From Thermoanaerobaculia bacterium (GTDB lineage: Bacteria; Acidobacteriota; Thermoanaerobaculia; Multivoradales; JAHEKO01), in the NCBI GenBank assembly GCA_947259925.1, contig CAMYOG010000058.1, positions 1 to 64,000 of the forward strand: a stretch of 64,000 bases of DNA, in the 5' to 3' direction. Every line of letters begins with the position of its first letter. Position 1 is the first letter of the stretch. Shown here piece by piece: positions 22,097-58,653 of the stretch. Below the pieces are notes generated by a model. That model did not search any database, was not told where the DNA came from, and saw only the letters and a program-made list of their open reading frames with translations. The position numbers and the translations under genes are program-made.

Positions 22097-24255
22097 GCGC
22101 GGACGATCCCGAGCTTCTTCATGCGGTAGCGCAGCGTGTTGGCGTGCAGGCCGAGGATCTCGGCCGCCCCGCCGGCCCCCGCGATCTGCCCGTCGCAGGC
22201 CTCGAGCACCGCCTGGATGTGACGGCGCTGCACCTCGTCGAGCGTCACCAGGCCGTCGCCTCCGGCGGCCGGAGGCGCGACCCGGTCCATCCGCCCCTCG
22301 TCCAGCTCCAGGCGGCCGGCCAGCTTGAGCACCGACCCTTCGGCGGCATACGAGGCGCGCTCGACGACGTGCTTGAGCTCGCGCACGTTTCCAGGCCAGG
22401 GGTATTGCTCCAGCCGTCGCAGGACCTCGCGCGGCAGCTCGGTGAGCGGCACGGTCCGACTCTCGTTGATGCGCCGTAGAAAATGGAAGACCAGCGGCGC
22501 GATGTCCTCCGTCCGCTCGCGAAGTGGCGGGACGCTGATCGGATAGCCCTCCAGACGATAGAAGAGGTCCTCGCGGAAGCGCCCCTGGCGAACTTCCTGC
22601 AGCAGCCGCCGGTTGGTGGCCGCGATCAAGCGGACGTCCACGTGCAGGATCTGGTTGCCGCCGACGCGGCTCATCTCGCCATCCTCGAGCACTCGCAGCA
22701 GCTTGGGCTGGACCTCGAGCGGCAGCTCGCCGATCTCGTCCAGGAAGAGCGTGCCACCGTCGGCAAGCTCGAAGCGTCCTCGACGCCTCCGGTCCGCGCC
22801 GGTGAACGCTCCTCTCTCGTGGCCGAAGAGCTCGCTGCTTTCGAGCCCTGGAGGCAGCGCCGCGCAGTTCACGACGACGAAGGAGCGGTGCGCGCGCCCG
22901 CTCTGCTCGTGAATCGTCCGAGCCACGAGCTCCTTGCCGACGCCGGTCTCGCCCTGTATCAACACCGAGGCATCAGTGTGCGGGGCGACCTCGCGGATCT
23001 TGTGTAGGACGTATTGGAGGCCGTCGCTCGTGCCGATGATGCCCTCGAATCCCGCCCGCTGCCCGATCTCCTCGCGCAGGACCAGGTTCTCCTCCTCGAG
23101 CCGACCCTTGAGGCGCTCGAGCTCTGCCACCGTGCGCTCGAGCCGTCTCAGGGCATCGCGCGTGGCACCCTCCGCCCGCTCGCGCTCGGTGACGTCCGCG
23201 CCGAGGCCGAGAGTCTCCCTCTCATCGCCGTCGTTCTTGACGAGGGCCACGTAGCGCCATTCGATGGTGCGGCGCAGGCCGTCGCCGCCGAGCATGCTCT
23301 GGCGCGCGGCTCCCGTCCCGCCCTCGCCCGGCACTCTGGACAGGGACCTCGAGGCGGCCTGCCGCTCTTCGGGCGCCACCAGCTCCACCAGCGGTCGACC
23401 GATCACGTCGGCCGCGGGTGGTCCCAAGACCTCGACGAAGTGCGGGTTCACCTCGCGCACGAGGCCGTCGGCGTCGAGGCGGATGATGAGCAACTGAGCC
23501 CGTTCGACCAATTGGCGATAGCGCTTCTCGTTGGTCGCGATCTTCCGCGAGAGACGGGCTGCCTTGGCCGCCACGCCGGTGAGCTCCCAGGTCATGAAGA
23601 CGACGACCAGGAGGAACGCGAAGGGGTGGAGCGGGGGCACCTTGAGCAGGCCGAGATCCATGGGAATGATCGCCAGCACCGAGACGCTCAGAACCACGAA
23701 CGAGGCGCCGATCCAGCGAGCCAGGCCGTGCCGGCCTTCCCTGGCCAGGCGCAGCATCGTGTCCAGGAGCAGGATCAGGAAAGTGACGTTCGCCAGGTCG
23801 CCCACGAGGCGCCAGGGTCCGGCCGGGCCGACGCCGAACGAGATCGTCTCCCCCCAGGGAAACAAAACACGTTCGATCGAAGTAAGTTGAAAAGCCAACG
23901 CTTCCGGGGACGCGAAGCCGACTAGGGCGGTGGCGGCGAGCAGCGCCAGAACCGCCGTGAGCAGGGGTCGTCGCACCCGACCGGTGCGAACCGACAGAAA
24001 GACCGCCAGCAGGGCGAGGAACGTCGTGATGGACACCGCCTGCCAACGCAGCGCCATATGGAGCTCGGCGGGGCTCTGCGCGGTCACGAATCGGCGTTCC
24101 ACGAAGAACGCGTCGAGCGCGGCGGCGAGCGCGCAAGCGGCGAACAGCAGGCTTCGCAGGCGCTCGGGCGAGCGCGCCGCGATCATCGCCCAAACGCCGC
24201 TCACGGCGGCGCAGACGAGGGCGACGACCAGGTAGCCGGACTGGAAGAGATTCAA
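22048..24255 (-). CDS. Membrane-anchored sigma-54-dependent transcriptional activator (about 7 TM, PAS, AAA+, Fis-type HTH)
   Basis: Walker A GETGVGKELVARTIH, GHERGAFTGADRRRRGRFELADGGTLFLDEIGELP (sigma-54 contact loop), HTH NTLRYRMKKLGI; TTG start preceded by AGGAG. Confidence 0.92.
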   Translation of the reverse strand: MNLFQSGYLVVALVCAAVSGVWAMIAARSPERLRSLLFAACALAAALDAFFVERRFVTAQSPAELHMALRWQAVSITTFLALLAVFLSVRTGRVRRPLLTAVLALLAATALVGFASPEALAFQLTSIERVLFPWGETISFGVGPAGPWRLVGDLANVTFLILLLDTMLRLAREGRHGLARWIGASFVVLSVSVLAIIPMDLGLLKVPPLHPFAFLLVVVFMTWELTGVAAKAARLSRKIATNEKRYRQLVERAQLLIIRLDADGLVREVNPHFVEVLGPPAADVIGRPLVELVAPEERQAASRSLSRVPGEGGTGAARQSMLGGDGLRRTIEWRYVALVKNDGDERETLGLGADVTERERAEGATRDALRRLERTVAELERLKGRLEEENLVLREEIGQRAGFEGIIGTSDGLQYVLHKIREVAPHTDASVLIQGETGVGKELVARTIHEQSGRAHRSFVVVNCAALPPGLESSELFGHERGAFTGADRRRRGRFELADGGTLFLDEIGELPLEVQPKLLRVLEDGEMSRVGGNQILHVDVRLIAATNRRLLQEVRQGRFREDLFYRLEGYPISVPPLRERTEDIAPLVFHFLRRINESRTVPLTELPREVLRRLEQYPWPGNVRELKHVVERASYAAEGSVLKLAGRLELDEGRMDRVAPPAAGGDGLVTLDEVQRRHIQAVLEACDGQIAGAGGAAEILGLHANTLRYRMKKLGIVRAQRSTVNETPQRRGSL

Positions 24256-24302
24256 GCGCCAGACTCCTCGAAAGTCGGCAGAGTATCATCGACGGAAACC
24301 AC

Positions 24303-24323
24303 ATCCCGTCACGGTATTTCGTG
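24303..24323 (+). promoter_or_regulatory. UAS-like element ATCCCGTC-ACGGT-ATTTCGTG
   Basis: Shared with elements at 42012, 46203, 50682, 58499; adjacent to the sigma-54 activator gene. Confidence 0.55.
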
Positions 24324-24429
24324 GCCACCGGGGAATTCCGCGAGCTCTCGATTCGTGGCGGAAGCGCCGCGGGGAGCTATCTCCTACCCCCTCAGCAGCT
24401 TGGAGAAGCTCGACAAGCCCGGCCCAGAA

Positions 24430-24445
24430 TGGCACCGGGCGTGCA
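24430..24445 (+). promoter_or_regulatory. Putative sigma-54 promoter TGGCACCGGGCGTGCA
   Basis: TGGCAC...TGCA with 10 bp between GG and GC; 107 bp downstream of UAS; 24 bp before ABM gene. Confidence 0.6.
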
Positions 24446-25464: not shown

Positions 25465-27036
25465 GTGAAGAAGCGGAGTGTCTCGATAGTTCTCCTGGGT
25501 GTGCTCGGCCTGGCGCTCGCCGGCGCCGGCGTGGCCCAGGACAAACCCAACATCGTCGTCATCTGGGGCGACGACATCGGCGTTGACAACATCAGCGCCT
25601 ATCACCGCGGCATGATGGGGGGCTCGACGCCCAACATCGACCGCATCGCCAGCGAGGGCGTCCTGTTCACCGACTACTACGCCCAGCAGTCGTGTACCGC
25701 GGGCCGCGCCTCCTTCATCACGGGGCAGAACCCCTTCCGCACCGGGCTGCTGACCATCGGCATGCCGGGCTCCGAGCAGGGCCTCCAGGCGAAGGATCCG
25801 ACCCTGGCCGAGCTGCTCAAGCCGATGGGCTACGCGACCGCCCAGATCGGCAAGAACCACCTGGGCGACCGCAACGAATTCCTGCCGACCGTGCACGGCT
25901 TCGACGAGTTCTACGGCAATCTCTACCACCTGAACGCCGAAGAAGAGCCAGAAGATCCCGACTATCCGAAGGACCCGGCGTTTCATGAGCAGTTCGGCCC
26001 ACGCGGAGTTCTCGACTGCGTAGCTTCAGACGTCGACGATCCCACCTCCGACCCGCGCTGGGGCCCGATGGGCAAACAGAAGTGCACGGATACAGGCCCA
26101 CTGACCCGCAAGCGCATGGAGACGGTCGAAGAGGATCTGCTCGAGCGATCGCTCGCCTTCATCGACAAGTCGCACCAGGCGGGCAAGCCCTTCTTCCTCT
26201 GGCACAACTCGACGCGCAATCACGTCTGGATCCGCCTGAGCGAGAAGTGGGAGAACAAGTCCGGCTACGGCATCTACGCGGACGGCATGATGGAGCTCGA
26301 CTACGTGGTCGGCGAGCTGCTCGACAAGCTCGACGAGCTCGGCATCGCGGACAACACCATCGTCCTGTTCTCGACCGACAACGGCGGCGAGATCTTCACC
26401 TGGCCCGAGGGCGGCAACCATCCGTTCCACGGCGAGAAGGGCAGCACCTGGGAAGGCGGATTCCGAGTGCCGTCGCTGGCCCGGTGGCCCGCCAAGTGGC
26501 CCAAGGGCAAGATCGTCAACGACATCTTCTCGCACCAGGACTGGCTGCCGACCCTCATGGCGGCGGCGGGCGAGCCCAACATCAAGGAGAAGCTCCTGAC
26601 CGGCTACCAGGCCGGCGACAAGACGTTCAAGGCGCACCTCGACGGCTACAACCAGATGGACCTGCTCACGGGTATGGGTCCCGGCAAGCGTAAGGAGATC
26701 ATGTACTTCGACGCCGGGGGGCACTTGAACGCGCTCCGATACGGCGACTGGAAGCTGATCTTCACGCTGGTTGAGGGTCCCATACCGGAGGCGTATCGGA
26801 AGTCCCCGACCTGGCCGCGGATCGTCAACCTGCGCCAGGATCCGTACGAGCGATTCCTCTTCGAATCCCAGATGTACACCCGGTGGTTCGCCGACAAGAT
26901 GTGGACCATGGTGCCGGCGCAGACCTTCGTTGCCGGCTATCTCGAGACGCTGAAGGACTTCCCGCCCACCCGTGGCTCCAGCCTGAGCGTCGATGCGGTG
27001 CTGCAGCAGCTGCTGACGCAGAAGGCGCGGCAGTAG
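25465..27036 (+). CDS. Arylsulfatase-type sulfatase
   Basis: KPNIVVIWGDDIGVDNIS; SCTAGRASFITGQ (CxAxR formylglycine motif); ENSKDFFSTDNGG-type metal-site motif VLFSTDNGGE. Confidence 0.9.
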   Translation: MKKRSVSIVLLGVLGLALAGAGVAQDKPNIVVIWGDDIGVDNISAYHRGMMGGSTPNIDRIASEGVLFTDYYAQQSCTAGRASFITGQNPFRTGLLTIGMPGSEQGLQAKDPTLAELLKPMGYATAQIGKNHLGDRNEFLPTVHGFDEFYGNLYHLNAEEEPEDPDYPKDPAFHEQFGPRGVLDCVASDVDDPTSDPRWGPMGKQKCTDTGPLTRKRMETVEEDLLERSLAFIDKSHQAGKPFFLWHNSTRNHVWIRLSEKWENKSGYGIYADGMMELDYVVGELLDKLDELGIADNTIVLFSTDNGGEIFTWPEGGNHPFHGEKGSTWEGGFRVPSLARWPAKWPKGKIVNDIFSHQDWLPTLMAAAGEPNIKEKLLTGYQAGDKTFKAHLDGYNQMDLLTGMGPGKRKEIMYFDAGGHLNALRYGDWKLIFTLVEGPIPEAYRKSPTWPRIVNLRQDPYERFLFESQMYTRWFADKMWTMVPAQTFVAGYLETLKDFPPTRGSSLSVDAVLQQLLTQKARQ

Positions 27037-31786: not shown

Positions 31787-33076
31787 GTGGGCACTAGCAG
31801 ACGAGCTCAGCCTGTGGGCAGGCGACTAGCCGGATTCGCCCTGCCGCTCGCGCTGCTCGTCGGCGGCGCGGCCGCGGCCGCGGCCGAGGATTCCGACGAC
31901 GAGAGGAGGCAACGGCGAACCGGCAGATGGCTGGAGGACCGGGCCCAATACGATCCGCGGCCGTACGAGGAGGGCGTGCTCGCCGAGGGCTGGCCGGGGA
32001 CGAGCTTCTTCCTCCGCAAGGACCGAATGTGGCTCGAGGACGGCGTAGCGTTCGGCGGCTACTTCTCGGCCAATGTCCAGTCGGGCAGCGAAGGCGGCAA
32101 GGCGCACTCGATCAGCGAGACCCTGCTGCTCGCTACCTGGGAGCCGGTGCGGCGCGGCAACACCGCGGGCCGGCTGGTGATGGGTTTCGCCTACGACTTC
32201 ACGTTCGGCCGACCCACGACGCGGAAGTTCGCCGACAACCTGGGGCTTGTCGAGACCCCGAACGACCTCGACACCGACCCCGACCTCAACTTCGCCACGC
32301 TGGGGCTCTTGCACTGGGAGCAGGAGTACCATCGCGGTTCTGGCCGCGGCTGGGGCTGGCGCGCCGGGCAACTCTACGGGCCCTCCTACTTCGGCATCTC
32401 CGGCTATCTGGACGACGACCGTAGCTACTTCATGGCTCGACCGCTCGCGACCCCGGCTGGCGCCCAGTGGGTGGGCGGCAACGATATCGGGCTGGGCGTC
32501 GATCTGACCGCCTGGAACGGGCCCTGGTACGTCTCCGCCGCGGCGATGGACGGCAAGGCGAACCGCCAGTATCCGCACTTTTCGAGTCTCGCCGACGGCC
32601 AGCTGCTCTATCTCGGCGAGGTCGGCCTGGAGTTCGATCGCGGCGGCCCGAACGAGGCCGCGGTGCGCCTGACCGGGAGCCATCTCGACGTCCACGACGG
32701 CGCCGCTCCCGACAAGGGGCCGGGCCAGTCGGCGATGGTCTCCGGGTATCGCACCTTCGCCGGCCGCTGGGCCCTCTCCGGACGCTGGAGCCGCTCCTGG
32801 AAGCGGCTGTCGTCCGACTATCGCGAGCTCTATGCGCTCGGCCTTCTCTCGCTTCGGCCGCTGTCGCGATCGCTCGACGTCGCGGGCCTCGGGGTCTTCA
32901 CCGGCCAGCCGAGCGACGCCTCGCGGGGCACAGAGTCGGGAGCCGAGCTCTTCTACCGCCTGCAGCTCACCCAGGCACTGAATCTCATGGGGAGCGCTCA
33001 GTACTGGAGTCGCGACCGGGCCGGGGGCGGCTCGGGCGCCTGGGTCGGCGGCCTGCGGGTCAACTTCGAATTCTGA
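31787..33076 (+). CDS. OprB-like carbohydrate porin (start uncertain)
   Basis: Signal peptide; GYFSANVQSGSEGG...; AGLGVFTGQPSDASRGTESGAELFYRLQLTQALNLMGSAQYWSRD; C-terminal RVNFEF. Confidence 0.78.
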   Translation: MGTSRRAQPVGRRLAGFALPLALLVGGAAAAAAEDSDDERRQRRTGRWLEDRAQYDPRPYEEGVLAEGWPGTSFFLRKDRMWLEDGVAFGGYFSANVQSGSEGGKAHSISETLLLATWEPVRRGNTAGRLVMGFAYDFTFGRPTTRKFADNLGLVETPNDLDTDPDLNFATLGLLHWEQEYHRGSGRGWGWRAGQLYGPSYFGISGYLDDDRSYFMARPLATPAGAQWVGGNDIGLGVDLTAWNGPWYVSAAAMDGKANRQYPHFSSLADGQLLYLGEVGLEFDRGGPNEAAVRLTGSHLDVHDGAAPDKGPGQSAMVSGYRTFAGRWALSGRWSRSWKRLSSDYRELYALGLLSLRPLSRSLDVAGLGVFTGQPSDASRGTESGAELFYRLQLTQALNLMGSAQYWSRDRAGGGSGAWVGGLRVNFEF

Positions 33077-33171
33077 CGCCCAACCGACAACGACCTCGGT
33101 TTCTACGCCCGCCACTGCTGGAACGGGTCGGCGATTCGCGCTCTAGGTGCATCGCGAGTCCCGGCGAAACC

Positions 33172-33907: not shown

Positions 33908-34140
33908 CTCGGCCTTCTCCCGCTCCGGCCGCTATCGCGATCGCTCGACGTCGCGGGCCTCGGAGTCTTCACCGGCCAGCCCCGCGACGCCTCGCGGGGC
34001 ACCGAGTCGGGGGCCGAGCTCTTCTATCGCGTGCAGCTCACCCAGGCACTGAATCTCATGGGGAGCGCTCAGTACTGGAGCCGCGACCGGGCCGGGCGCG
34101 TGGGTCGGTGGCCTGCGGGTCAACGTCGAGTTCTGACGCC
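33908..34140 (+). repeat. Partial duplicate of the 3' end of the 31787..33076 porin gene
   Basis: Near-identical to ~32838-33083, with a small deletion near the end that shifts the frame. Confidence 0.92.
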
Positions 34141-34167
34141 CACGAAATGTGGGAACGGCATTTCGTG
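34141..34167 (+). promoter_or_regulatory. UAS-like perfect palindrome CACGAAATG-N9-CATTTCGTG
   Basis: 9-bp perfect arms; half-site ATTTCGTG shared with other elements. Confidence 0.6.
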
Positions 34168-34240
34168 TCCGAGTCGGGAAGGGCCACGAATCGCCAAGGT
34201 TTTTCCTTGTTTCTATGGGGCCGAGAAGGGACTCTCGGAA

Positions 34241-34256
34241 TGGCACAGAGCTTGAT
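34241..34256 (+). promoter_or_regulatory. Putative sigma-54 promoter TGGCACAGAGCTTGAT
   Basis: TGGCAC-N5-TTGA with correct spacing, 74 bp from UAS. Confidence 0.55.
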
Positions 34257-37896: not shown

Positions 37897-40800
37897 CTAG
37901 CTCCCGGCTCTCTCGGCCTCGGCCCTCGCCTTGCGGGCCTCGTTCAGCGCCTTCTTGCAGAGCTTCTTGTCGGCGGTCACCCGCTTCAGCAGTCCCGTGG
38001 CGGCGAGTGACAGGCCGCCCGTGCCGATCGCCAGTCCGGTGGCGGTGGCGGCTGCGAGGGGCTTGGTCTCGACCTCGGGGGCCCCGAGGGTGCCCCCGAC
38101 CTTGACCAGGCTGTCGGCCGCCGAGGCCAGGCCCAGGCGGAGTCCGCGCGGCTTGGTGGCCCAGCGGAAGGCGAGCTCCTCGGTCTCGAGATCGACCCGG
38201 CCGACGCCGAGGACGTCCAGATACTCGGAGCGCGTGGCGACCGGTTCCAGCTCGACGACACCGTCCTCGACTCTCGCCACGGCGACGATGCATTCGAGGT
38301 TGGTGTAGTTGGAGGCGCCCGCCAGCGGATTGAAGGAGCGGATGAGCCCGACGATGCCGCCGAGAAGCGGCAGCCTCGCGGCCGCGAGCTCGACCAGCGT
38401 GAGATCGATCTGGCCGGCGCCGGCCGCCACGATCAGGTGGCCGTCGAGGCTTCTGGCCATGGCGTGAGGCGAGTCGCCGACGCCTTCGATCGAGAGATCG
38501 AAGTCCAGCGGCACCGCCCGCGCGAGGTCCTCGTCCGGCGTGAGGCCCGGCGACTTGATGTCGGAACCGGTCAGCCGTCCGAGAGCGCGGTAGCCCGACG
38601 CCACCGGCTCGAGAGTCAGCCCCAGTGAGATGGCCCCCGCCGTCTCACCCGCGGCCGAGCTGCGCTCGACGTCGAGACGCCCGTCGCGCAGGCTGGCGAT
38701 CACCTCGACGTCGTCGATCCGGCCGGCGCGGGCGGTGACTTCGTCCACCCGGTAGGCGACTTCGGCGTCGATCTTGTCGAGCACGCCGAGCTCGAACGGC
38801 TCGTCGGCGAAGACGAGCTCGCCCTCCTCGGCAGCGGGCTCCGCTGCCGCCGCCTCGATCTCGCCGGCCGGGCTGACTGCTGCCGACGGCTCCGGGAGGC
38901 CGAGCAGGGTGGGCAGGTCGATGCGCTCGGATCGGAGCTCGAGCCGTACGTAGGGCTTCTCTCGCAGATCGACGCGCAGCGACCCCGCGAGGTCGCTCGC
39001 ACCGAAGCGCGCTTGGAGATCCTCGACCAGGAACTCCTGGGGACTGCCCGCGAGGCGGGCGCCGACCTCGTACGGCTGATCCGGGAACCCCTCGGGCTTC
39101 TCGAGAAGCTCGGCCAGGACCGTCGTATCGGGCCCCTCGGCTTGGAGCTCGAGCCGCGTGCCGACCATCCGGGGCGGCTTGCCCAGCGTTCCGTCGAGCG
39201 CGACCCGGTGGTCGCCCAACCAGGCCCGGACCTGGTGAAACCGGGTCTCCTCGCCCAGGATCTCCGCGCGACCGCTCGCCCCGAAGGCCTGCGCCGGCAC
39301 CCGGACGCCGGCCATCTCGCCGACCACCGAGGCGTCGGGCCCGGTGACGTCGGCGGTCAGCTCCAGGCCGGTGGCGCGCGCGAAGCTGGCAAGCCTCGCC
39401 TCGGCGCGGACTTCGATGCCGCCCAGGGTGGCGGTGACGTCGCTCAGCCCGAAGCCCGACTCCGTGAGCCGCAGCTCGCCGGTGACCGCGTAGCGGTCGG
39501 GCGGCAGATCGGGGACCCAGTCGAGCCCGGCCCCCGACAGGATCCGGCCGGCCGAGCCGGCGTCCGAGCCGGCGACCGACAGGAGAAGCTCGGTAGACCC
39601 CATGCCGGGGAGCGGACCGACGGCGCCCGACGCCGTGGCCCGGTGGAGGCCGAGCTCGCCCACCATCTCCTCCAGGCGGTAGATCTCGCCGTCGATGCGC
39701 ACCCTTCCGGCGACGTCGAAGGGGTCCTCGGGGAGCGGCGGCAGCTCGCGCCAGGCGCCGAGGTCCGAGAGACGGGGCCCGCGCGCTTCGACCTCGAGGT
39801 CGGTTCCGTCGAGGTCGGGAAGCGGGCCCACGAGCCCGGCGACCTTCAGCTCGATGTCGCCGGCCCGCGCGGCGAGGTCGTCGAGCGCGTAGCCGGCGGG
39901 CGACGCGCCGAGGCGTCCGCTGACATCGAAGGGCTGTGCGGGCAGACCGGCCAGCCCGGCCAGGCCCCCCGCCCGCGAGACATCCGGGCCGGCGACACGG
40001 AAGAGCACGTTCGAGCCGGCGAGGCCGGGTCCGGCGTCCAGGCGGCCGCTCGCCCGCAGCGCGATCTCGCCCAGGCTGCCCTCGACCCCTTCGAGCTCGA
40101 AGCGCCGGGCGCCGAGAGCGCGCACCCGCCCGGCGACCTCGTACCGCTCCGCGGGCAGCTCGAGCAGCTCGGGCAGCTCGACGGGAACGAGGGCGGCGGC
40201 CCGCGCCAGGTCGGGACCGGCGGCTCGAAGCTCGAGATCGGTGCCGGCGAGGCCCGCGACGGGGAAGACGACGCCCTCGGCCAGCACCTCGCTCTCGGCC
40301 GCCTTCAGCACCACCGGCCGCAGACTCAGCCGGTCGCCACCCCAGCCCAGGTGCCCCTCGATCTTGAGCGGCGAGGAGGGCAGCCGGAAGCCGGCCAGCG
40401 CGGAGAAGGCGGCGGGATCGGGGCTCGCGATCCGGAGGTCGATCGCGGCGCCGGCGAAGCTCGGCGGCCTCCCCAACGTGCCGTCCAGCCAGAGCCGGGT
40501 CGCGCCGATCCGTCCCTCGAGTCCCTCGGCCGCGAGCTCTCCTTGCCGGCTCGCCAGTCGGCCTCGGATTCGGTACGGACGGGGCGGAAGATCGATCCCG
40601 GCCAGGCCACCGAGGCTGGACAGGTCCGGGCCCTCCGCCTCGATCACGACTTCCGAGCCGCTCATCTCGGGCGCCCAGCTCAGCAGGCCGTCCGCGGAGA
40701 GCCGGTGACCTCCGATCCGGGCGGCAAAGCGCTCGAAGGCGGCTCCCGAATCGGTCAGCCGCGCCTTGCCGGAGACCGAGAACGGGCCCGGCGGCAGGCG

Positions 40801-41784
40801 GTCGATGCCGTTGATCGCTCCGAGCGACTCCGGACCGGGACCCCGGGCATCGATCGTGAGGTCGAGGTCCCGGGGATCTCGCAGAGAGCTCACCCGGCCC
40901 GTGGCCTCGATCTCTACCTCGCCGACCGCCGCGTCCAGCTGGAGGTCGAACGGTCCGCCGGGCTCGACGGGCGAGATTGCGCCCGAGACGCGGAACGGTC
41001 CGGCGCCGAGCGGCGGCAGGCCGAACGCGCGGGCGACGCCGGCGACGTCGGGGCCGTCGATCTCGATCTCGAGAGCCAGGCCAGCGAGCGTCGCCAGGTC
41101 GGCGATCGCTCCGCCCAGGGTGAGGTCGACGTCGCCCCATCGACCGGTGAGCTCGTGCTCGATGCTGCCGGCCGCCAGGAGCTCCTCCAGCGGACCGACC
41201 CTGCCTGCCAGCTCGAAGGGGGTCTGCTCGAGGCTGCCGCTGGCCTCGAGATCGAGCCATCCGGCCGCGGTCGAGCGCACCCGGAGCCGCTGGACGCTCG
41301 CCTCGCGGGACTCCTCGCGGGCCGGGTCGCGGTAGCGGATCTCGGCGTCCGCGAGCTCGAGGGCCTCGACGAGGACCTGGGGCACCTCGTCGGCGCTCAC
41401 CTCGAGCTCCCAGTTGCCGCGACCCTCGCCGTCGGTCTCGAGAAGCAGCTTCGCTCCCTGGAGACGCAGATCGACGATCCGTAGCGGCCCCGAGATCAGC
41501 GACCAGAGGCCGAACGAGATCTCGACGCGATCGGCGCGGGCCATCAGCGGGCTGGTGCTCCAGCTCGGGTTGGCCAGCCCGAGGTCTTCGAAGACGAGCC
41601 GCGTCACCCCACCCGGATCGGCCCGGAAGCGGCCGATGGTGACCTCCCGGTCCACCCGATCCGAGGCCGCGCGGGCGATCGTCGGGCTCCAACCGCTCAG
41701 ATCGGCCAGCTCCAGGTAGAGCAGGACGGCGGCTGCCAGAAGCACCGGCAGGGCGATCAGTGCGAGTAGGAGCTTCCGAGACAT
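37897..41784 (-). CDS. AsmA-family (AsmA/TamB-like) envelope protein, 1295 aa
   Basis: MSRKLLLALIALPVLLAAAVLLYLELADLSGWSP...VTIGRFRADPG; repetitive beta-rich domain; C-terminal AsmA-like VLGVGRVDLETEELAFRWATKPRGL. Confidence 0.85.
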   Translation of the reverse strand: MSRKLLLALIALPVLLAAAVLLYLELADLSGWSPTIARAASDRVDREVTIGRFRADPGGVTRLVFEDLGLANPSWSTSPLMARADRVEISFGLWSLISGPLRIVDLRLQGAKLLLETDGEGRGNWELEVSADEVPQVLVEALELADAEIRYRDPAREESREASVQRLRVRSTAAGWLDLEASGSLEQTPFELAGRVGPLEELLAAGSIEHELTGRWGDVDLTLGGAIADLATLAGLALEIEIDGPDVAGVARAFGLPPLGAGPFRVSGAISPVEPGGPFDLQLDAAVGEVEIEATGRVSSLRDPRDLDLTIDARGPGPESLGAINGIDRLPPGPFSVSGKARLTDSGAAFERFAARIGGHRLSADGLLSWAPEMSGSEVVIEAEGPDLSSLGGLAGIDLPPRPYRIRGRLASRQGELAAEGLEGRIGATRLWLDGTLGRPPSFAGAAIDLRIASPDPAAFSALAGFRLPSSPLKIEGHLGWGGDRLSLRPVVLKAAESEVLAEGVVFPVAGLAGTDLELRAAGPDLARAAALVPVELPELLELPAERYEVAGRVRALGARRFELEGVEGSLGEIALRASGRLDAGPGLAGSNVLFRVAGPDVSRAGGLAGLAGLPAQPFDVSGRLGASPAGYALDDLAARAGDIELKVAGLVGPLPDLDGTDLEVEARGPRLSDLGAWRELPPLPEDPFDVAGRVRIDGEIYRLEEMVGELGLHRATASGAVGPLPGMGSTELLLSVAGSDAGSAGRILSGAGLDWVPDLPPDRYAVTGELRLTESGFGLSDVTATLGGIEVRAEARLASFARATGLELTADVTGPDASVVGEMAGVRVPAQAFGASGRAEILGEETRFHQVRAWLGDHRVALDGTLGKPPRMVGTRLELQAEGPDTTVLAELLEKPEGFPDQPYEVGARLAGSPQEFLVEDLQARFGASDLAGSLRVDLREKPYVRLELRSERIDLPTLLGLPEPSAAVSPAGEIEAAAAEPAAEEGELVFADEPFELGVLDKIDAEVAYRVDEVTARAGRIDDVEVIASLRDGRLDVERSSAAGETAGAISLGLTLEPVASGYRALGRLTGSDIKSPGLTPDEDLARAVPLDFDLSIEGVGDSPHAMARSLDGHLIVAAGAGQIDLTLVELAAARLPLLGGIVGLIRSFNPLAGASNYTNLECIVAVARVEDGVVELEPVATRSEYLDVLGVGRVDLETEELAFRWATKPRGLRLGLASAADSLVKVGGTLGAPEVETKPLAAATATGLAIGTGGLSLAATGLLKRVTADKKLCKKALNEARKARAEAERAGS

Positions 41785-41872: not shown

Positions 41873-41888
41873 TGCAAGATCAAAGCCG
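41873..41888 (-). promoter_or_regulatory. Putative sigma-54 element CGGCTTTGATCTTGCA facing AsmA operon
   Basis: GGC...TTGCA with correct spacing; conserved at 46349 (other copy) and similar at 50555. Confidence 0.45.
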
Positions 41889-42011
41889 CTGCGGAGTTGG
41901 GCTCAGCGAGGCGCCCATCCAGCCGGATCCGTCGAAGAATCCGGCGAATTCCTCGAGAGGAGCCTCGTTCCTGGCTTCCGGGACGAGCACTGCGGTCCTT
42001 CGCGAGACGAG

Positions 42012-42032
42012 ATCCCGTGACGACATTTCGTG
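42012..42032. promoter_or_regulatory. UAS-like element ATCCCGTG-ACGAC-ATTTCGTG
   Basis: Direct half-sites; nearly identical to 46203-46223. Confidence 0.6.
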
Positions 42033-42139
42033 CCGGCTCGTTCGAGGCCGCCGCACTGTCCGTACACCAGAGGAGGCCTGCCGGAGAATCGTCAACTCCG
42101 ATTGGCTCATTCCGGACTCGTGCCGGGGCGTTGGCTTGT

Positions 42140-42155
42140 TGGCACTCGGCATGCA
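42140..42155 (+). promoter_or_regulatory. Putative sigma-54 promoter TGGCACTCGGCATGCA
   Basis: TGGCAC...TGCA, correct spacing, 108 bp from UAS, same as at 46080. Confidence 0.62.
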
Positions 42156-42171
42156 GTCGAGTCGACCGACC

Positions 42172-43026
42172 ATGAGTGTCATGCGACGACGTCCCCGCCG
42201 AGGGCGGCTTGCCCCTCTGCTGATCGCGGCGTTGGTAGCCGGGAGCGGGGCGTTTCCCGCCGGCGCCCAGGAAGAAGGCGCCCAGGAAGAAGAGGCCGCG
42301 GCGCCCGGCCCGATCGTCACCGATCGCCCGACCGACAGCGCCTCGCCCGTTCTGGTGCCTCCGCGCACGCTGCAGATCGAGGCGGGCTACAAGTTCACCC
42401 ACACCGACGACGGCTCGGGCCGCACCGACACCCACGAGCTGCCCGACCTGCTGGCCCGCTTCGGTATCAACGAACGGGTCGAGGCGCGCCTGACCGCGAC
42501 GGGGTGGACCTTCCGCGACGCTACCGCAGGCGACGACGACGGCTTCAACGACGTCAGCCTGGGCGCCAAGTTCGCGCTCGGCGAGGGGCGCGGCCGCCGG
42601 CCGCGGACCTCGCTGCTGGCCGACGTGAGCCTGCCCGTGGGCCAGACCGGGTTCACCAACGACTACGTGATCCCCAAGGTCCTCTTTCTGGCGGAGCACG
42701 GGCTGACCGGCGGTGCCGGGCTGATCTGGAACCTCGGGCCCAGCTTCGTGAGCAGGAAGAAGGACGACGAGCGGCGAACGGACGTGGTGCTCAATTACGC
42801 GATCGCCATGAGCGGAGCGCTCGGCGGACCCTGGAGCCTCTTCGGCGAGGTCTACGGCAACTTCGACTTCGGCTCGGACAGCTCCGACAGCCACACCGTC
42901 CAGGCGGGCACGACCGTGCTGCTCGGCCGGACCTTCCAGCTCGACGTCCGCGTCGGGTACGGTCTGGTCTCCGGCGTGCCGGACTGGCTGGCCGGAGCCG
43001 GCCTCGCCTTCCGTATCCCAGGCTAG
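42172..43026 (+). CDS. Transporter/MetA-pathway-type outer-membrane protein
   Basis: IVTDRPTDSASPVLVPPRTLQIEAGYKFTHTDDG...; barrel C-terminus GLAFRIPG. Confidence 0.75.
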   Translation: MSVMRRRPRRGRLAPLLIAALVAGSGAFPAGAQEEGAQEEEAAAPGPIVTDRPTDSASPVLVPPRTLQIEAGYKFTHTDDGSGRTDTHELPDLLARFGINERVEARLTATGWTFRDATAGDDDGFNDVSLGAKFALGEGRGRRPRTSLLADVSLPVGQTGFTNDYVIPKVLFLAEHGLTGGAGLIWNLGPSFVSRKKDDERRTDVVLNYAIAMSGALGGPWSLFGEVYGNFDFGSDSSDSHTVQAGTTVLLGRTFQLDVRVGYGLVSGVPDWLAGAGLAFRIPG

Positions 43027-43202
43027 CCCGACCTTCTCACCAGCTTCCTACTGCGCCGCCGCATGCACCTGAATCTGCAGGACTTCGTTCGGTCGGGCAT
43101 CCTCGACGTATGTCGAATACGCCTGCGGTGCCCTCGGTCGCAAAGCCCAGCATCTTCAGGCACCTACGCCGGCTCGCTACGAAAGCCGGTGAGAAGGTCG
43201 GG

Positions 43203-44621
43203 CTAGAGGTCCGTTGCGTCCTCGCGCTCGGGGAGCTCGGGGCTCGACGGATCCCCTTGCTCGGTCTTCTCGCGCCGGCTCAGGTTCACCAGCGTCTGCC
43301 CGGCGAACTCGGCGTTCGGCATGGTCAGCAGCGTACCGTCCGCTCTGCGGATCTTCGTCGAGCGCAGGCCCACCTCCTCGAGGCAGCCCTGCTCATCTCC
43401 CATCTGCACGGATTCGCCGATCCGCACGGGCTGATCGGCGTACAGGCTGATGCCGGCGATCAGGTTCTCGAGGGTGCTCTTGGCGGCGAGCGCCACCGCC
43501 AGTCCGCCGACGCCCAACCCGGCGACCATCGCGGTCACCGGCAGACCCAGCCGCTGGCCGGCGAAGAAGACCCACGCCAGGACCAGCACTAGCGCCAGCG
43601 CTCTCGAGCTGACGCGAATGAGCTGCTGGCTCAACGGCCGCTCGAGCGCCAGGCCGCGAACCAGGTACTCGGCCCCTCGAGTCACCACCACGACCGTGAG
43701 CCAGGCGCCGCCGAGCATCGCCACCAGTGTCAGGGCCAGCCGCAGGTAGAGCCCGGGAGCCCCCCAGATGGTCAACTGCTCGAAGCTCGCTCTCCGCACC
43801 ACGAGAGGGATGGCGATCAGCGCCACCGGGCCTAGGAACGCCCAGAGCCGGTTGAGGCCGCGGCTCTCCGCGACGGGCCGCGTGTACTTCCTTCCGGCGC
43901 GAAGCGCGACCAGAACCAGCGTGCCGGCCGCGATCAGCACCAGGCCGAGCCCCACCCACTGCCAGGTCGCTTGCCCCCCGATCTCGCGCTTCGTCCAGGC
44001 GGGGAGGCGGGCGACGAGCGCGCTGATCCACTTCGACTTGCTGCCGAAGCGGAACTCCTCGTAGATGGTTCCTCGCTTGCCAGGCTGGTAGGGCAGATGG
44101 CGCACCCGCTCGAAGAACTCCGCCGTCCGCTCGACGGTTGCGGCCGAGAACAGGAACTGGCCGGCGCGGTCGCCCTCTTCCATCTTGACGATCTCGATCT
44201 CGGTGTGGGGGACCCTCCAGGCGGTCAGCCCCTCCTCTGCGACCCGGCTCGCGTCCGGGATCTCGGATCGCGGCGGCAGCTCGAGGCGGTCGAGGACCTC
44301 CTTGAGGAGCAGGGTCGCCTCGCCGCTGGCACGCTCGGCGGTCCGTGGGGCGAGGCGGCTCGGATCGATACAGCCCTGCGCCACGGCGTACGGTCTCCGA
44401 AAGGCCGGGTCGCCCGCCTGGTAGAGCGCCACGGCTTTGTCGACCGACTCGAGCAGGGTCTCGAGCGTGGCGCGCGGACTCGAACGATCCGGAGGCGCCA
44501 GCGGGTGTGGAGTGCCGGGCGAGGAGGCGGCGGGAGCCTGCGCCGTGAGCGGGGCGACGGCGAGGAGTGCCGCAAGGACGAGCGTATCGATTCGAAGTCG
44601 AACAGTCTGGCTGCTGCGCAT
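43203..44621 (-). CDS. MscS-family mechanosensitive channel, paralogue lacking most of the C-terminal domain
   Basis: VAGLGVGGLAVALAAKSTLENLIAGISLYADQPVRIGESVQMGDEQGCLEEVGLRSTKIRRADGTLLTMPNAEF then VNLSRREKTEQGDPSSPELPER*. Confidence 0.88.
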   Translation of the reverse strand: MRSSQTVRLRIDTLVLAALLAVAPLTAQAPAASSPGTPHPLAPPDRSSPRATLETLLESVDKAVALYQAGDPAFRRPYAVAQGCIDPSRLAPRTAERASGEATLLLKEVLDRLELPPRSEIPDASRVAEEGLTAWRVPHTEIEIVKMEEGDRAGQFLFSAATVERTAEFFERVRHLPYQPGKRGTIYEEFRFGSKSKWISALVARLPAWTKREIGGQATWQWVGLGLVLIAAGTLVLVALRAGRKYTRPVAESRGLNRLWAFLGPVALIAIPLVVRRASFEQLTIWGAPGLYLRLALTLVAMLGGAWLTVVVVTRGAEYLVRGLALERPLSQQLIRVSSRALALVLVLAWVFFAGQRLGLPVTAMVAGLGVGGLAVALAAKSTLENLIAGISLYADQPVRIGESVQMGDEQGCLEEVGLRSTKIRRADGTLLTMPNAEFAGQTLVNLSRREKTEQGDPSSPELPEREDATDL

Positions 44622-44627
44622 CGCCCG

Positions 44628-46022
44628 CTACTCTAACCGAGCGGCCTCGTCCGGCTGCGCCCACTTGCGTACCGACACCGCCGCGCTGATCTCCTCGATC
44701 ACCGCCAGCGAGATCTCGCGGGCGATCCGCTCGAGCTCGCCGTCGGTCAACCCGTCGACCAGCCCGTCGACCGTCTGCGCGAGGATCGATTGCAGCGCCT
44801 CGCGGCCCTCTTCGCTCTCGAGCGTAGCGGCCATGGTGTCGGCGATCGAGTCGAAGACCGCCTGGCCGATGTAGATCACCAGCGGCCGCACCACCCGGTC
44901 GGGCAGCGGCAGACGGCGCAGCGCCTGGGCGCTCTCCACCGCTCGCTCGAGGTTGGCGTCGAGGAAGCCTCGCGCCTGCTGGCGGAGGTCCGCGTTGGCC
45001 AGCACGTCGCGGGTCCTCACCGTGAGCTCGTTGGCGAGGGCATCGCGGTGGGGTTCGACGGTGTCGCGGATGATCTGTTTATGTCGCCCGTCGCGTACCT
45101 CTTCGGCGGTCTCGCTGAGAATCCGCAGGGCGACGATGTCGCTGATCTCCTCGGCGATGATGTTGTAGATGTACGTTCCGGTACGGGTGATGAAGTCGTC
45201 GCCGACGCTCGTCAGCTCGCTCCGTCGCAGGCGCACGTAGATCGACCCGATGCGGATGAGCCGGAAGAGGCGGAACTGGCGGAGGGGGATGATGCCCAGA
45301 AGGTCGTACCAGTTCAGGATCGGGTAGAGAAACCACTTGGCGTAGGTCTTGCGCCGCACCGCCAGAAACCAGCCGGTGTAGAACTCGATGGTAAAGATCA
45401 CGAGAAAGGGCAGATCGATCAGCCAGAAGTGGTCGGTGAGCTTGCCGCCGAGATCGTAGGCGCGGTAGAAGTTGATCGCGAAGTGGCGTCGCGCCTGCGA
45501 ATCGAAGCGTGCGAGCCTCGCCGGCAGCCGCTCGGCGTCCCAGCTCCAGTAGAGCTCGAAGCCCTCGCCGGCGGTCCGAGGCTGCAGGCCCTCGATGCGC
45601 AGCTCGGTACCGAGAGCGGCCTTGACGGCATTGAAGGCGCGCGTCTGCCCCGAGCGCTCGAAAGGACTGTCTTCGAGCATCTCGCGCGAGAGCACCCGGA
45701 GCTCGGCGAGCCGCGGCTCGATCTCGCCGCGGCGTGGCTCGAGGTCCTCCGGAGTCGAGGTGGGCGGCACGATGGCGGTGAGCTCGTCAGTAAGCTCCAA
45801 GTAGCGACTGGTGAGCGGATGCGACTCGATGCCCTTGACTGGATCGTAGATCCGGGTGACCACCGGCAGGTGACGAAAATAGTGCGGTCGCAGCCAGAGG
45901 TAGGTGAGGTCGAAGAGGATCAAGCCGACGTTGATGGTGGCGAGGTAGACCATCAACAGGTCCCACAGAAGCCGCGGAGTGAGCCGCCGGCGGAAGGCGC
46001 GGAAGCGCGTCAGCAGGCCCAC
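44628..46022 (-). CDS. Ion-transport-like integral membrane protein
   Basis: Several TM segments, NWYDLLGIIPLRQFRLFRLIRIGSIYVRLRRSEL (voltage-sensor-like Arg-rich helix); 6 bp upstream of the MscS paralogue; GTG start inferred. Confidence 0.6.
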   Translation of the reverse strand: MGLLTRFRAFRRRLTPRLLWDLLMVYLATINVGLILFDLTYLWLRPHYFRHLPVVTRIYDPVKGIESHPLTSRYLELTDELTAIVPPTSTPEDLEPRRGEIEPRLAELRVLSREMLEDSPFERSGQTRAFNAVKAALGTELRIEGLQPRTAGEGFELYWSWDAERLPARLARFDSQARRHFAINFYRAYDLGGKLTDHFWLIDLPFLVIFTIEFYTGWFLAVRRKTYAKWFLYPILNWYDLLGIIPLRQFRLFRLIRIGSIYVRLRRSELTSVGDDFITRTGTYIYNIIAEEISDIVALRILSETAEEVRDGRHKQIIRDTVEPHRDALANELTVRTRDVLANADLRQQARGFLDANLERAVESAQALRRLPLPDRVVRPLVIYIGQAVFDSIADTMAATLESEEGREALQSILAQTVDGLVDGLTDGELERIAREISLAVIEEISAAVSVRKWAQPDEAARLE

Positions 46023-46079
46023 GATTCGAGGGGTATCAGGAGATCTCGCCGGATTCGGCTCACGGTCAGTCGACTCGAT

Positions 46080-46095
46080 TGCAGGCCGAGTGCCA
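46080..46095 (-). promoter_or_regulatory. Putative sigma-54 promoter TGGCACTCGGCCTGCA
   Basis: Correct GG/GC spacing; 108 bp from UAS at 46203; homologous to 42140-42155. Confidence 0.62.
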
Positions 46096-46202
46096 GGGAG
46101 CCAGCGCCCCGGCACGAGTCCCGAATGACCCGATTCGAGTTGCTGTTACTCTGGCCCGGCTCATCATAAGCGCAGACCGTTCCGCCGCCTCGAACGACCC
46201 GC

Positions 46203-46223
46203 CACGAAATGCTGTCACGGGAT
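46203..46223. promoter_or_regulatory. UAS-like element (minus: ATCCCGTG-ACAGC-ATTTCGTG)
   Basis: Copy of element at 42012 in a ~300-bp inverted homologous regulatory region. Confidence 0.6.
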
Positions 46224-46348
46224 ATGGTCTCGCGGAGGACCGTGGAGCCCGTACCGGGAGTCGGCGACGAGGCTCCACCCCGGCATTTCGACAGATTCTT
46301 CGGTGGAACTCGGCGGGGACGGGCGCCTCGCTGGGCACGAGTCCTCGG

Positions 46349-46364
46349 CGGCTCTCGTCTTGCA
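46349..46364 (+). promoter_or_regulatory. Putative sigma-54 element CGGCTCTCGTCTTGCA facing 46416..47798
   Basis: GGC...TTGCA with correct spacing; counterpart of 41873-41888. Confidence 0.45.
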
Positions 46365-46415
46365 CCTACTTCTGAAGCTACTTTCACCGTGGCTTCTGAA
46401 CGGGAGGAGCTCGTC

Positions 46416-47798
46416 ATGCCGCCGAGAACCGTCGCTCGGATTCTCTCAGTCGTCCTGCCGGCTGTCGTAACGCTCTTGATGCTGTCCGGCACCGCCTGGG
46501 CCGCCAAAAAGGCAAAGCAGACCGAGACCGTCATCACCGAGGAAGAGCTTCAGCTCGAGCTGATGAGCTACGCGGATCGCTACGCGGCCACGGTCGCACA
46601 AGCGGTCGACGACGTCGAGCGGCTCGACCCTTCGCCCGAGACGCGGCGGGTAGTGCTCGGCGACATGGTCTTCTCGGCGGCGGCCGCCTTCACCACGGCG
46701 GCGGATCCCGAGGTAGATCTCGCCCTGCTCGACCTCGTGGTCATGACCTCGCTGGGCCGGATGGTCTTCGAGGACTACTGGCGTCCACGGATCGGAGCCG
46801 CCGCCGACCCCGCGATTGCCGCCCTGACCAAGCTCGAGAGCGAGGTCTGGACCGTGGCGGCGCCGATTCTCAGCGAGCCGCAGCGGCGCGAGCTCCGCGA
46901 CCGGATCACGGCCTTCCACAGCGCCAACCCGGAGCTGAGCACCTTCAGCCACCTGCGGTTCGCCGACTTTCCATCGCACCAAGAGGGGTCGACACTCCAG
47001 AAGACCAGCGGTCCAGGAGGCGGGATCTTCAAGTCGGTCAAGCACGTCAGCGAGCAGGTGCAGAAGACGCGCATCCTGGCTGAACGCGGCATGTACATTG
47101 CGACCAGGCTGCCCCTGCTCTCGGGAGGGTTCGCCGACATCTGGGTCTCGCGACTCGCGGCCAACCCCGCCGTCGACAAAGTGCTGGCCGACACCCATGC
47201 CTTCGCCGAGGTCGCCGACCGTTTCGCGGTCGTCGCGGAAGGGCTGCCCGAGACGATCACGACCCAGCGCCACGAGGCGATCGAGCAGCTGGGCAGCGAG
47301 GTGAGCGTCCTCCGCGAGGAGGCCTTCGACGACCTCTTCCAGCACATCGCCAGGGAGCGCGAGGAGATCATCCGGCGGATCACCCACGCCGACGAGCAGC
47401 TGGGAGCCCTGCTCGAGGCGCTCAGTGAGACCCTGGCGGAGTCCAACACCCTGGTGGCCGCCGCGGACGATCTGGCCGAGCGTTTCGCCAAGGGACCCGA
47501 AGCCGATCCTTTCGAGATCGAGCCCTACCGATTGACCATCGACCAGGCGGGCGTGCTCGTCCAGCAGCTCACCACCCTGCTCGAGGCGACGCAGGAGACG
47601 CTCGACTCGCCGGGTGCCGAGCGACTGGCACCCGCGGTGAACGAGACGATCGACGCGGTCGGTCGGACCACGCACGAGCTGGTCGACCACACGTTCTACC
47701 GCGCCCTGATTCTGATCGTGCTGGCACTCGTCGGCGCCGTCGTCGCCATGCTCGGCTACCGCTGGCTGGCCAAGCGGATGTTCCCCGAACCGGCCTGA
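46416..47798 (+). CDS. Periplasmic coiled-coil hypothetical protein with C-terminal TM
   Basis: Signal peptide VLPAVVTLLMLSGTAWA; long helical region; C-terminal ALILIVLALVGAVVAMLGYRWLAKRMF. Confidence 0.7.
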   Translation: MPPRTVARILSVVLPAVVTLLMLSGTAWAAKKAKQTETVITEEELQLELMSYADRYAATVAQAVDDVERLDPSPETRRVVLGDMVFSAAAAFTTAADPEVDLALLDLVVMTSLGRMVFEDYWRPRIGAAADPAIAALTKLESEVWTVAAPILSEPQRRELRDRITAFHSANPELSTFSHLRFADFPSHQEGSTLQKTSGPGGGIFKSVKHVSEQVQKTRILAERGMYIATRLPLLSGGFADIWVSRLAANPAVDKVLADTHAFAEVADRFAVVAEGLPETITTQRHEAIEQLGSEVSVLREEAFDDLFQHIAREREEIIRRITHADEQLGALLEALSETLAESNTLVAAADDLAERFAKGPEADPFEIEPYRLTIDQAGVLVQQLTTLLEATQETLDSPGAERLAPAVNETIDAVGRTTHELVDHTFYRALILIVLALVGAVVAMLGYRWLAKRMFPEPA

Positions 47799-47814: not shown

Positions 47815-47998
47815 GGTAGTGGTACGGAAAGGGCCGGCGCACCCCAGACGGGGCATAAAGCGCAGCGCCCCCACTCCGTCACCACAAGAGGAGACTTGCC
47901 AGGCCTTGTCGCCTGGCAAGGCTCTCTCGGGCTCCCCGGTCCGAAGGGGCGCGAGCCAGCCCCGGGCGGGGTGCGCCGGCTCTTTCCGTACCACCACC
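47815..47998. mobile_element. MITE-like structured element with 31-bp terminal inverted repeats
   Basis: GGTAGTGGTACGGAAAGGGCCGGCGCACCCC / GGGGTGCGCCGGCTCTTTCCGTACCACCACC (29/31), internal CTTGCCAGG-N8-CCTGGCAAG hairpin, no ORF. Confidence 0.65.
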
Positions 47999-50554: not shown

Positions 50555-50570
50555 TGCAGGATCAAGGCCC
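50555..50570 (-). promoter_or_regulatory. Putative sigma-54 element GGGCCTTGATCCTGCA facing MscS gene
   Basis: GGC...CTGCA spacing; resembles 41873-41888 and 18793-18808. Confidence 0.4.
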
Positions 50571-50681
50571 TGTCGCGCCTCTCCGCTCGGGTTGCGCGAC
50601 CAGACGTCCGCCTCCCGAATCGCGGCCTCGTCCCCGACGAAACCACATCGCGAGCTGGGAAGACTCGTCGGTGGAGACGAA

Positions 50682-50702
50682 GATTCGCCACGGTATTTCG
50701 TG
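50682..50702. promoter_or_regulatory. UAS-like element ATTCGCCACGGTATTTCGTG
   Basis: CACGGTATTTCGTGG shared with 24311-24324. Confidence 0.5.
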
Positions 50703-50783
50703 GGCACGGGCCTAAGTCGCGGCTTCGAGCGCGCGAACGCTGGCTTTTCGAGCTTCTTGCGGTGTCGGAGGCCTGCGAACCGT

Positions 50784-50799
50784 TGGCACTGCTCCTGCA
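50784..50799 (+). promoter_or_regulatory. Putative sigma-54 promoter TGGCACTGCTCCTGCA
   Basis: TGGCAC...TGCA with correct spacing, 82 bp from UAS. Confidence 0.6.
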
Positions 50800-54644: not shown

Positions 54645-56225
54645 ATGGTACGACTTCGTATGGCAGGGCGGGTCGCCCTGCTGCTGGTGACGATCGCGGG
54701 CCTGTCCGGCCCGACGTCGGTCGTGGCCGCCGACGGCAAGCCGAACATCCTCGTCGTCTGGGGCGACGACATCGGCATGTCGAACATCTCCTACAACACG
54801 CGCGGACTGATGGGATACCGCACGCCCAACATCGACCGCATCGCCAACGAGGGCATGGCCTTTACGGACTACTACGGCGAGCAGTCCTGCACGGCGGGGC
54901 GCTCCTCGTTCATCACCGGCCAGAGCGTGTTCCGCACCGGCCTGTCCAAGGTCGGCCTGCCGAACGCCGAGCAGGGCATGCAGAAGGAAGACCCGACCAT
55001 CGCCACGGTGCTGAAGGCTCGAGGGTACGCGACCGGCCAGTTCGGCAAGAACCACCTCGGCGACCGGGACGAGCACCTGCCGACGATGCACGGCTTCGAC
55101 GAGTTCCTCGGCAACCTCTACCACCTGAACGCCGAGGAGGAGCCGGAAAACGAGGACTACCCCACCGACTTCGTCCTGGCCGACGGCAAGACCTTCCGCG
55201 AGCGGTACGGCCCGAGGGGCGTCATCCACTCATGGGCGAACGCGGACGGCAGCCAGCGCATCGAGGACACCGGCCCGCTGACGAGGAAGCGCATGGAGAC
55301 GGTGGACGACGAGACCTCCGACCGCGCGCTCGAGTTCATCCGCGAGGCGCACGCCGCCGGCAAGCCCTGGTTCGTCTGGTGGAGCGGCACGCGCATGCAC
55401 TTCCGCACGCACGTGAAGGAGGAGTTGCGCGGCATCTCCGGCCAGGACGAGTACTCGGACGGCATGGTCGAGCACGACATGCACATCGGCAGGTTCCTGG
55501 ACCTGCTGGATGAGCTCGGCATAGCCGACGACACGATCGTCCTCTACTCGACCGACAACGGTCCGCACATGAACACCTGGCCGGACGCGGCCATGACGCC
55601 GTTCCGCGGCGAGAAGAACACGAACTGGGAAGGCGGCTGGCGGGTTCCCGCCTTCGTGCGCTGGCCCGGCAGGATCGAGGCCGGCTCGGTGACGAACGAG
55701 ATCGTGCACCACATGGACTGGCTGCCGACGTTTGCCGCCATGGCCGGCGATACGGACGTCAAGGAGCGCCTGCTGGGCGGCACCCAGCTCGGTGCCCGCA
55801 GCTACAAGGTGCACCTCGACGGCTACAACATCCTGCCGCTGCTCACCGGCGAGACCGACAAGAGCCCGCGCAACGAGATCTTCTACTTCTCCGACGACGG
55901 CGACCTGACGGCGCTGCGCTTCCGGGACTGGAAGGTCATCTTCATGGAGCAGCGCGCCGAGGCCACGTTCCAGGCCTGGCGCGAGCCGTTCGTGCTCCTG
56001 CGGGCGCCGCTGCTCGTCAACCTCCGCCGCGATCCCTATGAGCGGGGGATGGTGACCTCCAACACCTACGACGACTGGTGGCTCGACCGGCCCTACCTGA
56101 TGCTGCCGGCGGGCGACTACGTGGGCAGGTTCCTGGCGACGTTCAAGGAGTTCCCGCCGCGGCAGAAGCCGGGCAGCTTCACCATCGGGGACGCCACCAA
56201 GGCGCTGACGCCGCCGGGGGGCTGA
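54645..56225 (+). CDS. Arylsulfatase-type sulfatase, paralogue of 25465..27036
   Basis: KPNILVVWGDDIGMSNISYNTRGLMGYRTPNIDRIANEG...SCTAGRSSFITGQ. Confidence 0.92.
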   Translation: MVRLRMAGRVALLLVTIAGLSGPTSVVAADGKPNILVVWGDDIGMSNISYNTRGLMGYRTPNIDRIANEGMAFTDYYGEQSCTAGRSSFITGQSVFRTGLSKVGLPNAEQGMQKEDPTIATVLKARGYATGQFGKNHLGDRDEHLPTMHGFDEFLGNLYHLNAEEEPENEDYPTDFVLADGKTFRERYGPRGVIHSWANADGSQRIEDTGPLTRKRMETVDDETSDRALEFIREAHAAGKPWFVWWSGTRMHFRTHVKEELRGISGQDEYSDGMVEHDMHIGRFLDLLDELGIADDTIVLYSTDNGPHMNTWPDAAMTPFRGEKNTNWEGGWRVPAFVRWPGRIEAGSVTNEIVHHMDWLPTFAAMAGDTDVKERLLGGTQLGARSYKVHLDGYNILPLLTGETDKSPRNEIFYFSDDGDLTALRFRDWKVIFMEQRAEATFQAWREPFVLLRAPLLVNLRRDPYERGMVTSNTYDDWWLDRPYLMLPAGDYVGRFLATFKEFPPRQKPGSFTIGDATKALTPPGG

Positions 56226-58415: not shown

Positions 58416-58431
58416 GGCAATACGTGTGCCA
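58416..58431 (-). promoter_or_regulatory. Putative sigma-54 promoter TGGCACACGTATTGCC
   Basis: Canonical TGGCAC-N5-TTGC; 68 bp from UAS-like element. Confidence 0.68.
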
Positions 58432-58498
58432 AGCGGAGAGTCGAGTTTCAGCCGGCTCCTGGCAACCACGGTGCTCGAGCCCGGGGGGTCGAGACGGT

Positions 58499-58519
58499 AT
58501 TCCGTGACGACATCTCGTG
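58499..58519. promoter_or_regulatory. UAS-like element ATTCCGTG-ACGAC-ATCTCGTG
   Basis: Same half-site arrangement and N5 as 42012-42032. Confidence 0.5.
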
Positions 58520-58653
58520 GCCGCTCCCACAGCCGGCGCTGTTGACGGCGATGCAGCCGATGACCCCGTCGACCGCACGCGCCTCGCCTGGCTGCCGATG
58601 ATACGCGTCCGATGTCATTGCGAAACTCGAGCCTACGTAGTAGAGCTGGGTAG

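Follow-up and report, generated by a model that had tools for sequence, protein, structure and literature searches.

The question raised by this locus is how two closely similar control regions, lying in opposite orientations within the 64,000-nucleotide stretch of DNA analysed here (the window), came to stand in front of different genes, and which protein acts on them. The answer that we consider very probable, as read from the sequence, is that a local sigma-54 regulon grew by the copying and inversion of a bidirectional control island, the dyad of which would be served by the regulator encoded at 22048-24255; 46039-46364 is an inverted duplicate of the control island 41873-42196. The duplication, its edges, the anatomy and spacing of its motifs, the recurrence of the enhancer-promoter arrangement elsewhere and in a relative, and the lack of the enhancer in front of the g39 orthologs are direct observations. 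The islands and the genes that they precede are as follows:

41873-42196, plus strand: regulatory island, copy A, aligned end to end with copy B
46039-46364, minus strand: regulatory island, copy B, sharing 75-76% identity with copy A throughout its length
42172-43026, plus strand: g37, Phenol_MetA_deg-family protein, under copy A
37897-41784, minus strand: AsmA-family protein, under the divergent promoter of copy A
44628-46022, minus strand: g39, under copy B, coding for a membrane protein of unknown family (start taken from orthologs)
43203-44621, minus strand: mscS1, encoding a mechanosensitive channel and placed second behind the copy B promoter
46417-47798, plus strand: g40, predicted membrane protein with an N-terminal signal or transmembrane (TM) segment, under copy B (start set by the ribosome-binding site GGGAGGAG, read in the sequence)

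The two islands, their promoters and their enhancer

The original prediction had stated that the two regions are similar over their full length and had named motifs common to both. Each point is borne out. BLASTN matched 46059-46364, reverse-complemented, to 41873-42176 (+) with 75.8% identity over 306 columns, MAFFT giving a concordant result; the E value was 9.1e-55 in the search of the organism's own assembly (4.72 Mb, 60 contigs). Aligned globally, 41873-42196 and the reverse complement of 46039-46364 share 243/324 identical positions, with two 1-nt gaps, and the named motifs are present in both islands. When the genome was searched by BLASTN for more copies no further full one appeared, the assembly containing exactly two; the next-best match, 58490-58526, covers the enhancer part only.

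Both copies display TGGCACTCGGC(A/C)TGCA in one direction and CGGCT...TTGCA in the other, with the enhancer in between:

42140-42155, plus strand: copy A sigma-54-type promoter TGGCACTCGGCATGCA, facing g37
41873-41888, minus strand: copy A divergent sigma-54-type promoter CGGCTTTGATCTTGCA, facing the AsmA-family gene
42006-42033, plus strand: copy A enhancer (UAS dyad) GACGAGATCCCGTGACGACATTTCGTGC
46080-46095, minus strand: copy B sigma-54-type promoter TGGCACTCGGCCTGCA, facing g39 and mscS1
46349-46364, plus strand: copy B divergent sigma-54-type promoter CGGCTCTCGTCTTGCA, facing g40
46202-46229, minus strand: copy B enhancer (UAS dyad) GACCATATCCCGTGACAGCATTTCGTGG

Sigma-54 promoters have GG-N10-GC as their core, and boxes were assigned to this type by a -24 GG and a -12 GC placed 10 nt apart within TGGCAC-N5-TTGCW. 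This spacing was found in the boxes of both islands; all four keep it and face outward. The divergent boxes read CGGCT(TTGAT/CTCGT)CTTGCA, being non-consensus at -24 (CGGCT, not TGGCA) and keeping TTGCA. The element facing the opposite way had been predicted to be retained, and indeed CGGCTCTCGTCTTGCA in copy B (+) matches CGGCTTTGATCTTGCA in copy A (-). The pattern TGGCACN6TGCA occurs 7 times in the genome, 4 of them within the window, and rpoN is encoded in the same genome (PF04552, E = 5.8e-65, C30:92313-92789). The interpretation of each island as a divergent pair of sigma-54-type promoters, of putative activity, around one shared enhancer is thus supported.

The enhancer is a 27-bp dyad, ACGARAT-N11-ATTTCGTG, placed centrally and with identical spacing in both copies, the left half-site of copy B being degenerate. 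Concerning its distance to the promoter, for which a conserved value of 108 bp had been put forward, the distance is in fact identical in the two copies, while the value itself depends on the edges chosen: it is about 106 nt from the dyad edge to the -24 box and 125 nt from CCGT to TGGCAC. Measured from the dyad centre, the -24 box lies about 120 nt away at five sites, which belong to two genomes: copies A and B, a site at 24.3 kb of the window, and two sites (on contigs C115 and C489) of the same-genus genome G002.

Recurrence of the enhancer and the candidate regulator

Islands A and B appear to belong to a wider local regulon, the other sites of which share with them the enhancer and the sigma-54 box alone; this regulon was no part of the original prediction. 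These sites and the candidate regulator are listed here:

22048-24255, minus strand: candidate regulator with 7 predicted TM segments, PAS, a sigma-54 AAA+ domain with GAFTGA, and a Fis helix-turn-helix (HTH)
24297-24324, plus strand: enhancer between the regulator and the ABM gene, with the sigma-54 box TGGCACCGGGCGTGCA at 24430-24445
34141-34168, no strand assigned: enhancer dyad CACGAAATG-N9-CATTTCGTG, preceding an outer-membrane protein gene
50676-50703, plus strand: enhancer between mscS2 (minus) and the ion channel gene g43 (plus)
58493-58520, plus strand: enhancer between g49 (minus) and g50 (plus), with a sigma-54 box at 58416-58431 (minus)

Counting the islands, dyads were found at six sites in the window and at three in G002, where the most complete one, TACGAAATGCCGTGACGGCATTTCGTG, is a near-perfect 27-bp palindrome. 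The dyad thus lies upstream of sigma-54 boxes and recurs at putatively co-regulated genes. The enhancer at 50676 is flanked by divergent boxes at 50555-50570 (-) and 50784-50799 (+); at the 34141 dyad, the -24 box TGGCAC is present with an imperfect -12 (TTGAT), the imperfect box lying at 34241. With an enhancer matrix, the six window dyads scored far above the background of the contig, a circular result for these six and for one G002 site, which together made up the training set; the G002 sites C115:10015 and C489:4587 were outside it and are hence independent. The composite pattern TTCGTG-N100-130-TGGCACN6TGC gave 3 matches in 4.7 Mb, all of them in the window, and its reversed control gave 0. 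Among the relatives, it gave mostly scattered background matches in a number comparable to the control, and is therefore given no weight there. At one site from that scan (G008, contig C260, 6500-7476), an oxidoreductase-like gene is preceded by TTCGTG and TGGCACGCGCCATGCT; the enhancer is a different one, and the site adjoins the end of an HTH-encoding gene.

Two further repeats were seen in the window. The 3' end of an OprB-like porin gene is repeated at 32837-33082 and 33908-34142, the fragment being 89% identical and stopping where the enhancer dyad starts (34141). Two sulfatase genes of one gene cluster (25534-26764 and 54729-55944) share about 69% DNA identity over 1.25 kb.

The 22048-24255 product appears to be a one-component enhancer-binding protein (EBP), with its seven predicted TM segments preceding the PAS, AAA+ and Fis domains. 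It has the domains of a bacterial EBP (PF00158, E = 9.9e-68; HTH_8, E = 4e-9), its translation contains the Walker A sequence GETGVGKE as well as GAFTGA, and full-length relatives of it occur in G002, G008 and G017. Since the sigma-54 activator domain has about 20 matches in the assembly, the regulator was assigned by adjacency and phylogenetic co-occurrence. It is conceivable for the same reason that the islands are sigma-54 control islands on which another EBP acts, the adjacent regulator merely sharing the neighbourhood. This seems unlikely in view of the location and conservation of the dyad. One dyad lies directly upstream of the regulator gene, and the order regulator, dyad, sigma-54 box, ABM gene, DUF4136 gene is the same in G002; in G008 and G017, too, repeats of the CACGAAAT/ATTTCGTG type directly precede the regulator gene, so that the half-sites occupy this position in four genomes, although with a spacing of 16 nt, not 11, in the latter two. 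Besides, all four regulators keep the recognition-helix region NTLRxRMKKLG, and the three exact matches to the enhancer core in the genome are all on the contig of the window. From adjacency and conservation, the dyad is most likely bound by the Fis-type HTH of the 22048-24255 protein.

According to the mechanism that we propose, each island would hold two divergent sigma-54-dependent promoters served by one central enhancer. The 22048-24255 ATPase would assemble on the enhancer upon a membrane or PAS signal, the enhancer-bound regulator would presumably loop the DNA, and sigma-54 RNA polymerase would be opened at either promoter, both being putatively active.

Origin of the similarity between the islands

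Considering the similarity as such, the enhancer and the two promoter boxes are identical between the copies at 51/60 positions (85%), and the non-motif positions at 192/264 (73%). Identity is therefore not restricted to the three short motif blocks; such a restriction would have contradicted the original prediction. The difference between motif blocks and remainder is marginal (Fisher p = 0.049) and the mismatches show no significant clumping (p = 0.44). The claim that a whole bidirectional promoter was duplicated in front of differing genes holds, while its other part, that the copies are conserved, is reflected weakly in these figures. The divergence outside the motifs (27%) is close to the 31% seen at fourfold-degenerate sites between the duplicated mscS genes nearby, and much of the identity between the copies may for this reason come from a recent common origin and not from constraint. 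These values are compatible with a similar age of the island and mscS duplications, with little constraint outside the motifs.

The fact that identity reaches beyond the promoter motifs might also be explained by a conserved small RNA or small protein present in both islands. We regard this as quite improbable: no Rfam match was obtained at gathering thresholds, the mismatches show little codon periodicity (24/27/18), which disfavours coding constraint, single-base gaps are present, and the non-motif divergence approaches that of the fourfold sites just mentioned.

A mobile or dispersed repeat of the MITE type, in which the motifs would be incidental, is brought to mind by the two similar inverted copies and by other inverted-repeat elements of the region, and yet it is very improbable. 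The several dispersed copies by which such an element is recognized were not found, and a dispersed repeat was rejected: there are two copies only in 4.72 Mb, and the 316-bp island had no full-length counterpart by BLASTN in 58 related genomes, an absence that is provisional for several relatives with fragmented assemblies. The edges, moreover, fall at a promoter box and at a start codon, and the enhancer with sigma-54 boxes recurs without the rest of the island. Independent convergence through shared enhancer and promoter motifs alone, as suggested by other regulon islands that share only motifs, has next to no probability, since the 264 non-motif positions are 73% identical and no more than two 1-nt gaps occur, which rules out an identity confined to the motifs.

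Copies A and B thus stand apart as a real duplicate, as the remaining sites of the window share with them an enhancer-sized stretch alone. On the left, the island ends at the TGCA that belongs to the divergent -12 box and, on the right, identity fades just beyond the start codon of g37; in the 300 bp outside each edge, the alignment scores of A versus B are those of shuffled sequence. Copy B retains at its right edge a similar GACCGTGAGC, with g39 beginning about 40 nt later in another frame. This resembles what would be left of the 5' end of a gene similar to g37, and suggests that copying went from A to B.

Flanking genes and proposed growth of the regulon

The genes flanking A and B are unrelated, as judged by Pfam and flank alignment. 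In G002, an island with the dyad at C489:4587-4612 and TGGCACCGCCCCTGCA at 4720 lies between a g17 homolog with AsmA and, in the opposite direction, the orthologs of g43-g44-g37. This gene set is split in the window, with AsmA and g37 at island A and g43-g44 at the 50.5-kb island, opposite mscS2. The mscS1 and mscS2 genes are 82.7% identical in DNA, and only one close mscS homolog, not two, was found in G002 (assembly 82% complete). Orthologs of g39 in five relatives (G002, G008, G010, G014 and G047) follow other upstream sequence, in which no outstanding enhancer matrix hit was found and inspection by eye revealed no sigma-54 box; for g40, no ortholog was found in 13 relatives. These absences, too, are provisional where the assembly of the relative is fragmented. 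Given the g39 orthologs without the enhancer, the single close mscS of G002 and the unmatched g40, copy B is most simply taken to mean that the regulon recruited g39-mscS1 and g40. The copying of the island alongside the mscS duplication would have brought these genes into a pre-existing envelope and ion-channel regulon.

Some other elements were noted near these genes, the first two by eye. A possible 17-codon leader ORF (46063-46011, minus strand, GTG at 46063) overlaps the start of g39 and may be left over from the 5' end of g37. An element of about 185 bp (43022-43207), MITE-like in appearance and bounded by an inverted repeat (GCCCGACCTTCTCACC ... GGTGAGAAGGTCGGGC), lies at the g37 stop codon. 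After g40 there is a 40-nt inverted repeat (47815-47854 and 47959-47998), 88% complementary, with its arms 104 nt apart.

Each type of component is already known. At the Desulfovibrio vulgaris orp locus, two divergent operons are co-regulated by sigma-54 and a cognate EBP (PMC3897727; reference 14 in PMC4641369). Divergent transcription units with sigma-54 and one EBP are likewise proposed here; unlike that single locus, the whole bidirectional island occurs twice, inverted, before genes that are unrelated, and a membrane-bound location is predicted for the candidate regulator. EBP genes divergent from sigma-54 operons, with a predicted UAS upstream of the promoter, are common, and UAS-promoter distances are mostly 100-250 bp in Clostridiales (PMC4641369, PMC6615313), where most EBP sensor domains lack TM regions (PMC6615313). 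The present locus resembles such local regulons of one-component EBPs in having the EBP gene divergent from a putative sigma-54 operon and a predicted UAS upstream of the promoter; it differs in organism and genes, and in the seven predicted TM segments of the regulator. In Planctomycetia, mscS (COG0668) genes are enriched among predicted sigma-54 targets (PMC12316311), a prediction paralleled here by an mscS under predicted sigma-54 control; that case comes from promoter scans, whereas here an mscS operon and its paralog adjoin islands with a defined enhancer. What is unusual is the inverted duplication of a whole bidirectional island, together with the seven-TM regulator. A limited literature search gave no direct precedent for promoter-island duplication in bacteria, and no characterisation of a 7TM one-component EBP regulon with sulfatases, porins and ion channels was found in the literature accessible to search.

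It is possible, but doubtful, that regulons grow by cassette copying of a complete island, an inverted copy here having captured unrelated genes on either side, and that the full length of the island is functionally required, for instance to set the geometry of the loop joining one enhancer to two promoters in competition. In either case, the two copies constitute a natural experiment that may show which elements of a divergent sigma-54 control region are important. The locus offers a clear, not exotic, example of regulon growth through promoter copying, and a concrete case of the gain of regulon members: g39, which in the relatives is found at an unrelated locus without the enhancer, lies here beside a copied island.
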